A DNA stretch of 64,000 nucleotides from Clostridia bacterium (GTDB lineage: Bacteria; Bacillota; Clostridia; Oscillospirales; Acutalibacteraceae): contig JAFSGP010000031.1 in the NCBI GenBank assembly GCA_017440755.1, positions 1-64,000 of the forward strand, given 5' to 3'. Within the stretch, counting starts at the first letter, position 1; the number at the start of each line of letters is the position of its first letter. Position numbers and translations under genes: made by a program. This document shows positions 31,742 through 64,000 of the stretch, one piece after another. The notes under the pieces were generated by a model that worked only from the letters and a program-made list of their open reading frames with translations, ran no database searches and was not told the DNA's origin.

Positions 31742-31775
31742 GAGTCAATTGTGATGATTTGGGAGGAAACCGCCG

Positions 31776-31881
31776 CACCGTATAAAGTGGCTTCTGCGTA
31801 AACTCATTACCAGACTAAAAAAGAAACAGCACCACTTGGTGCTGTTTCTTTTTTGGTGCGGGCAAGAGGACTTAGAACCTC
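31776..31881. repeat. Direct repeat copy A: flank, terminator-like hairpin and partial tRNA-Leu 3' end
   Basis: A 106-bp unit that parallels 31956-32061. Its left 37 bp (31776-31812) are identical to 31956-31992. A terminator-shaped hairpin follows (AAGAAACAGCACC/GGTGCTGTTTCTT) whose stem sequence differs from copy B. It ends with 28 nt (31854-31881) matching the last 27 nt of tRNA-Leu(CAG) except for one extra base in the T-loop. The rest of the tRNA is absent, so this is a partial copy, not a gene. Confidence 0.8.
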
Positions 31882-31967
31882 GATTTCCCGTGAGGGGAGC
31901 GGGTGCAGTATTTGAAGATGGTGGTTCACGGAAAATCTGTTATACGGTGCTGCCTCACCGTATAAAG
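31882..31967. other. Structured spacer between the two tRNA-Leu 3' ends
   Basis: GATTTCCCGTGA (31882-31893) can pair with TCACGGAAAATC (31926-31937), a 12-bp stem with one G-U; then TTATACGGTG (about 31940-31949), a 6-nt loop and CACCGTATAA form a perfect 10-bp inverted repeat whose right arm is the start of repeat copy B. No open reading frame or recognised RNA family. Confidence 0.6.
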
Positions 31968-32061
31968 TGGCTTCTGCGTAAACTCATTACCAACATAAAA
32001 AACTAAGCAACACCGAATGGTGTTGCTTAGTTTTTGGTGCGGGCAAGAGGACTTGAACCTC
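31956..32061. repeat. Direct repeat copy B, ending in the intact tRNA-Leu
   Basis: Partner of 31776-31881 at a 180-bp period: same 37-bp flank, then the tRNA-Leu(CAG) terminator, then the last 27 nt of the real tRNA. Confidence 0.8.
31997..32034 (-). terminator. Terminator of tRNA-Leu(CAG)
   Basis: On the minus strand the CCA end is followed at once by AAAAACTAAGCAACACC, loop ATTC, GGTGTTGCTTAGTTTTTT. Confidence 0.9.
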
Positions 32062-32121
32062 CACCGAATTGCTCCGATATGAACCTGAATCATACGCGTC
32101 TGCCAGTTCCGCCATGCCCGC
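32035..32121 (-). tRNA. tRNA-Leu, anticodon CAG
   Basis: 87 nt including encoded CCA. Acceptor GCGGGCA pairs with TGCCCGC; the D-arm starts GCGGAACTGGC; anticodon stem TATGA/TCATA with loop TTCAGGT, reading CUG codons; a long variable arm (class II); T-arm GGAGGTTCAAGTCCTC. No clear promoter is visible just upstream on the minus strand; it lies 105 nt after the end of the GDPD gene and may be read through from it. Confidence 0.97.
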
Positions 32122-63152: not shown

Positions 63153-63239
63153 GCCGCTGTGGTGGAACTGGCAGACACAAGGGACTTAAAATCCCTCGGT
63201 GGAAACACCGTACCGGTTCGATTCCGGTCAGCGGCACCA
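63153..63239 (+). tRNA. tRNA-Leu, anticodon TAA
   Basis: 87 nt with encoded CCA. Acceptor GCCGCTG/CAGCGGC, D-arm GGTGGAACTGGC, anticodon stem AGGGA/TCCCT with loop CTTAAAA, long variable arm (CGGTGGAAACACCG), T-arm CCGGTTCGATTCCGG. Class II tRNA reading UUA/UUG. Confidence 0.97.
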
Positions 63240-63276
63240 AATACCCCCAACACGCAGATGCGTGTTGGGGGTATTT
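63240..63276 (+). terminator. tRNA-Leu(TAA) terminator
   Basis: Long perfect stem: ATACCCCCAACACGCA, loop GA, TGCGTGTTGGGGGTAT, then TTT. Confidence 0.92.
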
Positions 63277-63277
63277 T

Positions 63278-63405
63278 GCACCACTGACCACGTCGCAGAG
63301 AATTGGTCTACTTTTTCGGTTTGCGTAGCAAATGGCGACTGTTAAAGTCGCCAAGAAAAAGTATAGGAGTTGGCAAAGCCAACTCCACGGTTCAGATTCC
63401 GGTCA
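63278..63405. repeat. 128-bp structured repeat, copy 1
   Basis: Differs from copy 2 (63443-63570) at a single base. Internal pairings include GACCA/TGGTC, an outer TACTTTTTC/GAAAAAGTA stem enclosing TTTGC/GCAAA and TGGCGACT/AGTCGCCA hairpins, then GGAGTTGGC-AAA-GCCAACTCC. The right end, CGGTTCAGATTCCGGTCA, resembles the T-arm of the adjacent tRNA-Leu(TAA) with one extra base in the loop; the ends TGACC and GGTCA are inverted. No coding capacity. Probably a small mobile or dispersed element of unknown type. Confidence 0.85.
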
Positions 63406-63442
63406 CCTTGATTTCTGTACATCCGTGTGTCGGGGCTGTTTC
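63406..63442. other. Spacer between the two 128-bp repeats
   Basis: 37 bp with no recognisable feature; repeat period 165 bp. Confidence 0.5.
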
Positions 63443-63570
63443 GCACCACTGACCACGTCGCAGAGAATTGGTCTACTTTTTCGGTTTGCGGAGCAAATGG
63501 CGACTGTTAAAGTCGCCAAGAAAAAGTATAGGAGTTGGCAAAGCCAACTCCACGGTTCAGATTCCGGTCA
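63443..63570. repeat. 128-bp structured repeat, copy 2
   Basis: Same as copy 1 apart from G for T within the TTTGC-GNA-GCAAA loop region. Same orientation. The high identity suggests recent duplication or strong constraint. The 86 bp to the right (63571-63656) show no feature I can support. Confidence 0.85.
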
Positions 63571-63685: not shown

Positions 63686-63718
63686 ATATGCATCAAGTTC
63701 GAAAGGAGAGCCACGGAT

Positions 63719-63784
63719 ATGTTCAGTAGCTGTTATTATTACTTTTTTATGATGGACTGCCCGTGCTCTGCCGCCGCTCGCTGA
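63719..63784 (+). CDS. Tyr/Phe-rich leader peptide (21 residues)
   Basis: Short frame with a good ribosome site (AAAGGAGAG at 63702-63710, 8 nt before the ATG). Residues 5-12 are CYYYFFMM, that is three Tyr then two Phe codons in a row, followed by a Cys-Pro-Cys and Ala-rich end; the stop codon falls in a hairpin loop. This composition, with an attenuator-like structure after it and an aminotransferase gene 88 nt downstream, marks a ribosome-mediated attenuation leader sensing charged tRNA-Tyr/tRNA-Phe (inference). Confidence 0.75.
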   Translation: MFSSCYYYFFMMDCPCSAAAR

Positions 63785-63855
63785 TGCGAGCGTAGAGTTT
63801 ACGGACAGTCCGCAGCCGCATATGCCGCCGTGCATAGTGAGGGTGCGGATTTTTT
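63754..63855 (+). promoter_or_regulatory. Transcription attenuator downstream of the leader peptide
   Basis: First structure: GGACTGCCCGT (63754-63764) pairs with ACGGACAGTCC (63801-63811), one mismatch, enclosing CGCTCGC-TGAT-GCGAGCG (63775-63792). Second structure: CCGCA-TATGC (63816-63825) pairs with GCATA (63832-63836) and TGCGG (63844-63848) around a 7-nt bulge, followed by T6: a terminator before the aminotransferase. Stalling at the Tyr/Phe codons would cover the 5' arm of the first stem. I could not define the anti-terminator pairing by eye. Confidence 0.65.
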
Positions 63856-63872
63856 ATTTGGAGGTAGGTAAA

Positions 63873-64000
63873 ATGATCGCAAAGGATATGTTAGCCCTTG
63901 GTAAGAAAAGCTCGGTTATTCGTGAGATCTTCGAGTACGCCCGTGTGCGCCGCGGGGAGATCGGTGCGGAGAACGTGTTTGATTTTAGTTTAGGTAATCC
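63873..64000 (+). CDS. PLP-dependent aminotransferase, N-terminal part (runs off the window)
   Basis: Only the first 42 complete codons are present. The start (MIAKDMLALGKKSSVIREI) and the FDFSLGNP segment match class I/II aminotransferases of Clostridia annotated as aspartate/aromatic aminotransferases. GGAGG at 63860-63864 precedes the ATG. The Tyr/Phe leader upstream suggests a role in aromatic amino-acid synthesis or interconversion; the catalytic Lys lies beyond the window. Confidence 0.8.
   Translation, partial: MIAKDMLALGKKSSVIREIFEYARVRRGEIGAENVFDFSLGN

Follow-up and report, generated by a model that had tools for sequence, protein, structure and literature searches.

In some Clostridia of the ruminant gut, many tRNA genes and the tmRNA gene are followed by palindromic DNA units of about 110-185 bp, frequently as tandem arrays. 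Every unit closes with a copied tRNA 3' end whose T-loop is, in most cases, one base too long. The units have a regular anatomy and are tied to tRNA genes through a sharp junction. They stand beside differing terminators, form mixed arrays and keep their palindromes in a DNA-like manner. The extra base that had been noticed in two tRNA-Leu-derived fragments is real and is the start of something larger.

What are these units? The reading preferred here, which has about an even chance of being right, is that gene-poor, att-site-like palindromic DNA units insert and accrete in the T-loops of tRNA and tmRNA genes, served by a recombinase acting in trans. The mobilizing enzyme is putative. Phages and islands classically dock at tRNA 3' ends. 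A unit would begin in the T-loop of the intact gene and extend to that of a displaced tRNA 3'-end copy, and the two starting fragments would be the right-hand ends of such units. Insertion would occur by recombination at the T-loop, where site-specific insertion and accretion would resemble those of tRNA- and ssrA-targeted islands. The extra base would mark the junction between the unit and the displaced tRNA end, and it may give that junction polarity or block recombination with the tRNA.

The two starting loci

The window (the whole stretch of 64,000 nucleotides that was analysed) contains two intact tRNA-Leu genes. The original prediction was that the fragments derived from them share an extra base after TTC, and both sequences bear this out when compared with the intact genes. 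CGGTTCAGATTCCGGTCA is found at 63388-63405, with a second copy at 63553-63570 (0 matches in 100 shuffles of the window), and GGTTCAGATTCC at 63389-63400 and 63554-63565. The tRNA-Leu(TAA) gene upstream of both copies (63153-63239) has CCGGTTCGATTCCGGTCA for comparison. On the minus strand, 31868-31879 reads GGTTCTAAGTCC where tRNA-Leu(CAG) (32035-32121) has GGTTCAAGTCC instead. Two accompanying claims need correction. The repeats behind tRNA-Leu(TAA), given as 128 bp, are 144 nt long (97% identity, spacing 165 bp), and the two loci, taken to be unrelated, are both members of one genome-wide family. An assembly or sequencing error was also considered as the source of the extra base and rejected because the base is present in 35 copies across genomes. 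The features of the two loci are as follows.

63153-63239, plus strand: intact tRNA-Leu(TAA), host gene of the array (ARAGORN; Rfam RF00005)
63240-63275, plus strand: terminator hairpin belonging to the first unit (perfect inverted repeat)
63262-63405, plus strand: unit 1 of the tandem pair, 144 nt (direct repeat, 97% identical to 63427-63570)
63279-63289, plus strand: left arm, an inverted tRNA 3'-end segment, CACCACTGACC region (inverted repeat I1)
63309-63363, plus strand: internal palindrome TACTTTTTC..GAAAAAGTA, with an inner hairpin at 63333-63353 (stem search)
63366-63386, plus strand: palindrome adjoining the T-arm mimic, GGAGTTGGC/GCCAACTCC (stem search)
63388-63405, plus strand: 8-nt-loop T-arm copy TTCAGATT and displaced tRNA 3' side (sequence)
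63427-63570, plus strand: unit 2 of the tandem pair (direct repeat)
63553-63570, plus strand: second 8-nt-loop T-arm copy (sequence match)
32035-32121, minus strand: intact tRNA-Leu(CAG) (ARAGORN)
31999-32034, minus strand: terminator hairpin belonging to the Leu(CAG) unit (stem search)
31940-31965, minus strand: hairpin H1, TTATACGGTG/CACCGTATAA (stem search)
31882-31937, minus strand: long palindrome P3, GATTTTCCGTGA/TCACGGGAAATC (stem search)
31854-31881, minus strand: 8-nt-loop T-arm copy TTCTAAGT and complete displaced tRNA 3' end including CCA (sequence)
31817-31853, minus strand: second terminator, beyond the displaced tRNA 3' end (direct repeat D1)
31772-31816, minus strand: start of a further broken unit, ending at the H1 tip (direct repeat D2 and reading)

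A separate observation concerns 63700-63900 on the plus strand, where a short reading frame (MFSSCYYYYFFMMDCPCSAAAR) with a run of Tyr/Phe codons precedes hairpins and a start codon (at about 63874). To judge from the sequence, this looks like an aromatic amino acid leader-peptide attenuator ahead of an aminotransferase-like gene.

Anatomy of the units and the T-loop junction

Counting from the tRNA, the order of parts is CCA, a strong terminator, about 20 nt, an inverted arm, hairpin H1, the long palindrome P3, 1-3 nt and the T-arm copy. The left arm (GAACYN) and the right arm (NRGTTC) are inverted copies of T-stem and loop positions 51-56. Sixteen units of the commonest class were aligned. 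In their consensus the two ends, GAAC(Y)(N) and (N)(R)GTTC, form an outer stem by pairing, and compensatory changes in it track tRNA positions 51 and 52. The same consensus shows conservation of P3 (GGTTTTGCG..CGCAAAACC) and of a section of its loop (GA..AAGCAC). The extra base is the first base beyond the outer stem, between C56 and R57.

T-arm statistics were taken from 46 first units behind tRNA genes in six related genomes. The loop of the copy has 8 nt in 35/46, 7 nt in 11/46 (including a tRNA-Lys copy in genome G009 assigned by reading) and 6 or 9 nt in 0/46. Normal 7-nt loops in other copies had been named as evidence against the pattern, so this evidence exists in part. In the 8-nt copies the inserted base is mostly A, otherwise T or C, and it follows TTC directly in all but three (TTACAACT, TTACGAAT and TTGCAAGT). 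The copies match the cognate tRNA at positions 51 (43/46), 52 (43/46) and 53 (46/46), and the match drops at T-stem positions 49 (13/46) and 50 (12/46). Positions 49 and 50 are both kept in 0/35 of the 8-nt copies versus 5/11 of the 7-nt copies (p = 0.0003). Therefore, the 7-nt copies include whole T-arms, whereas the 8-nt copies start at position 51.

This bears on what the extra base is for. It had been suggested that the fragments are disabled T-arm mimics that mark or protect an attachment site. The suggestion is only partly supported. Its attachment-site part agrees with the att-type look of the junction in the T-loop. However, a base serving to disable the T-arm is not supported. T-stem positions 49-50 are already broken in the 8-nt copies, and the base lies just outside the outer stem GAAC..GTTC and so resembles a junction base. 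One further explanation, that the base is a universal bulge opposite a 7-nt left arm, suits L144 but fails at Leu-CAA, Leu-TAG, Gln and G389, where the left arm matches the extra base or has equal length.

Palindromes conserved as DNA

A perfect P3 stem of at least 8 bp is present in 30/46 units versus 1.2% of shuffles, and the 27 such stems that were listed represent 16 different sequences. The terminators provide a built-in control for RNA-type pairing changes. Among imperfect pairs, the ratio of GU to AC is 12:2 in the terminators versus 9:11 in the unit stems (Fisher p = 0.03). The palindromes are kept as DNA on this evidence, which is a modest test, and an RNA function is rejected because the unit stems have no GU preference over AC.

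What would an RNA function look like? Read-through from the tRNA might yield a small RNA containing a T-arm mimic. Such an RNA could affect tRNA processing or serve as a sponge, comparable to RttR of E. coli tyrT, and the closest known tandem repeats, those of E. coli tyrT/tyrV, are indeed annotated with the small RNA RttR. However, the pairing ratio is at odds with this idea, the units sit behind strong terminators, and an Rfam search of the window gave nothing above gathering beyond the two tRNAs. A structured RNA is very unlikely. Together with the broken T-stem and the position of the base, the terminators and the stems without RNA-type GU preference leave both notions, that the extra base disables a T-arm and that it avoids recognition as a tRNA, without support.

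Distribution within and between genomes

A search of the 1.8-Mb genome for GGTTCNRANTCC, the pattern of a T-arm whose loop has 8 nt, gave 21 matches versus 4 for the reversed pattern. Two of the 21 are exceptions, one being a chance match in a gene (C4) and the other an inverted left arm (C13). All others follow tRNA-Lys, Gln, Trp, Ser, Arg or one of four Leu genes, or stand at contig ends, places where such repeats interrupt the assembly. Chance is excluded as the source of the recurrence of the 8-nt T-loop. The survey of this genome also covered the 3' flank of every tRNA found by Rfam or ARAGORN, which revealed further units at Ala, Gly and Gln(TTG), and worn copies at Pro, Arg-CCG, Val, Ser-GCT and His.

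The original prediction proposed a search of T-arm-like fragments near tRNA genes in related genomes, and there the extra base recurs far above chance. In six genomes of one genus, units are found behind Lys, Gln, Ser, Arg, Val, Ala, Gly, Pro, Trp and Leu tRNA genes, and one site is behind tmRNA. Units are also present in other Clostridia MAGs from ruminants. In another family of the same order (G389, G377 and G401) the palindromes differ but the GTTCA junction is identical. The family is patchy, since few of the 394 genomes of the order that were scanned are enriched. Enrichment of the pattern in G041 and G055 was set aside because the middle bases varied (GGA/GAA) and no units were confirmed, and matches spaced about 645 bp apart in G310 proved to be a coding repeat. 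A literature search, mostly of what can be read without journal subscriptions, found no units this small and this frequent at tRNA genes.

Two other kinds of sequence were seen near tRNA terminators or units. A second repeat family behind tRNA terminators consists of many small hairpins with spacers ATGATGT or ATATCATC. It is found in G000 downstream of tRNA-Thr(TGT), Val(GAC) and Arg(CCT) (L056, L057 and L069), in G002/G006 (L241, L283 and L286) and at L152. Single ORFs occur between or before units, encoding DMP19-like (L043), WapI-immunity-like (L148) and small membrane (L152) proteins. After the ORFs that lie behind or between units at L148, L152 and L320 (G005 and G006) comes a shared motif, CTACTTTTAGTC, with four matches in two genomes.

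Insertion or local replication

One sign of insertion comes from the terminators. At G003 Arg-ACG, G003 Ser-GGA and G006 Val-CAC, the terminator behind the displaced tRNA end differs from the one adjoining the tRNA, and the one behind the displaced end is probably the original. Another sign comes from mixed arrays. The tmRNA gene of L196 has three units in a row, in the order X-Y-X by type, and every one of them has a terminator and a tRNA 3' end of its own. The first and third agree at 86% of positions outside the terminator and at only 62% within it, and simple tandem duplication does not yield such an array. The tRNA-Trp of G000 carries a Leu-TAG-type unit, in the Ser-CGA unit of G002 the left arm is of the Ser-CGA kind and the right arm of the Ser-GGA kind, and the same core sequence is found at many different tRNA genes in several genomes. 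In the manner that Islander-type searches look for, an intact target gene lies on one side and a displaced 3' fragment on the other. The integrase gene that such searches also look for is absent from the element, units of 110-185 bp being too small for one.

What if no recombinase is involved at all? Tandem duplication and template switching at the strong palindromes (terminator, H1 and P3) would then produce both the copied tRNA 3' end and the inverted arm, and would hold the arms to the sequence of the local tRNA, while the cores would spread by gene conversion. Several observations suit this scenario. The units are tandem and in tRNA orientation, and the left arm is closer to the cognate tRNA than to other tRNAs (Wilcoxon p = 3e-6). 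In several arrays the later units skip from the T-arm copy to the terminator loop, and there are arrays that end at the H1 tip. Arrays or second units often begin or end in the terminator loop at Ser-GGA, Leu-CAA, Leu-TAG, Arg-ACG and Glu, and they start or stop at the H1 tip at Arg-ACG, Gln, Ser-GGA and Leu-CAG. It is as if hairpin tips behave as breakpoints. That a dedicated enzyme was not found in the carrier genomes searched is a further point in its favor. Nevertheless, it sits poorly with one core recurring at many tRNA genes of several genomes, with arrays whose members may differ (X-Y-X) and with terminators that differ before and behind displaced tRNA ends. A purely local origin is possible but rather unlikely.

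Insertion at the T-loop has difficulties of its own. One is that cognate-matched arms combined with cores common to several tRNAs need arm correction, which goes beyond plain insertion of one element. Another is the 7-nt loop in 11/46 copies, with the full T-stem kept in 5 of those. The negative searches described below, for a dedicated recombinase and for a free or phage- or plasmid-borne form, also count against it.

The search for a mover

Among the tyrosine recombinases of six carrier genomes of the genus, only an Xer-like protein is common to all. The others, classed by eye, are assorted phage/ICE-type integrases. Y1 transposase is lacking in G002, G003, G005 and G401 among the carrier genomes searched, and reverse transcriptase is missing from several carriers, with none common to all those searched. 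Absence from several carriers rules out both as the common mover. Thus, no dedicated recombinase was found among the tyrosine recombinases, Y1 transposases and reverse transcriptases of the carriers searched.

Other recombinases do occur around the units. A carrier-type genome has an island with a large serine recombinase and an adjacent HsdR-like gene (L197, 3411-7908, minus strand), integrated at a tRNA 3' end directly before a unit, which is a point in favor of T-loop insertion. In two proviral contigs (L292 and L293), a provirus is integrated at a tRNA 3' end and its right junction is followed directly by the host unit. tRNA-targeting recombinases of both kinds are therefore present near units, and their role as movers is only putative.

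Perhaps these neighbors are what the units are for. A host might keep units as decoys that divert phage and island integrases from tRNA genes, with the extra base blocking strand exchange in the overlap. The provirus and the serine recombinase island immediately before units are compatible with this, as is the finding that small T-loop changes reduce phage Ms6 integration (PMC1762012). However, in both cases the tRNA was used despite the unit, and the left arm and the conserved P3 core are left unexplained. The decoy idea is very unlikely.

A free or phage- or plasmid-borne form was not found in the viral contigs, phages and plasmids searched. BLAST of phages and plasmids gave no unit match, core-pattern matches in viral contigs are unrelated palindromes, and two viral contigs considered as free carriers are proviruses with host flank.

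Comparison with known systems

The repeats behind E. coli tyrT/tyrV (RttR; Rfam RtT) are 178-bp tandem units behind a tRNA gene, each ending in a tRNA 3'-end copy, as here. They also have an inverted copy of part of the tRNA end (GGGGAAGGAT) and internal hairpins. However, they occupy one locus, and their tRNA copy begins at about position 58, without GTTC, the extra base or a shared core, whereas the Clostridia units occur at many tRNA genes and have a common core and the GTTC+1 junction. The RtT covariance model (RF00391) found no match.

The Dehalococcoides ssrA islands offer a parallel for the preferred reading of T-loop insertion. They accrete in the middle of the T-loop, with displaced 3' ends lined up in tandem and a conserved motif next to the displaced end (PMC3146451). 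However, these islands bear genes and a serine integrase (PMC3146451), whereas the Clostridia units are 110-185 bp and nearly always gene-free. Phage Ms6 likewise recombines within the T-loop, and single changes in this loop affect it (PMC1762012).

Integron attC sites resemble the units in their imperfect palindromes, short inverted ends and asymmetric base, and a few units are preceded by a single small ORF (DMP19-like or WapI-immunity-like). However, attC ends are GTTRRRY / RYYYAAC rather than NRGTTC/GAACYN, and most units have no ORF. The tyrosine recombinases of the carriers appear by eye to be Xer-like or phage/ICE-like, with no integron-type integrase recognized among them. Integron cassettes proper were rejected because the end boxes differ and an integron-type integrase was not seen in this inspection by eye. 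A genome-wide cassette-like system without IntI, in which tRNA and tmRNA T-loops would be the dock and units ending in GAACYN/NRGTTC would recombine, accrete and occasionally bring small immunity-type genes, is an unlikely variant. REP/BIME elements with their RAYT (Y1) transposase are also intergenic palindromes behind transcription units in many copies per genome, but the Clostridia units are tied to tRNA 3' ends and Y1 transposase is absent in several carriers.

Implications

In carrier genomes, the units account for breaks in the assembly behind tRNA genes and for partial tRNAs falsely called there. They also offer many natural junctions for the study of T-loop recombination. Finally, a family of such tiny units, sharply joined to the T-loop at many tRNA genes of one genome, would connect tRNA-targeted recombination with the E. 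coli tyrT repeats, an old puzzle.
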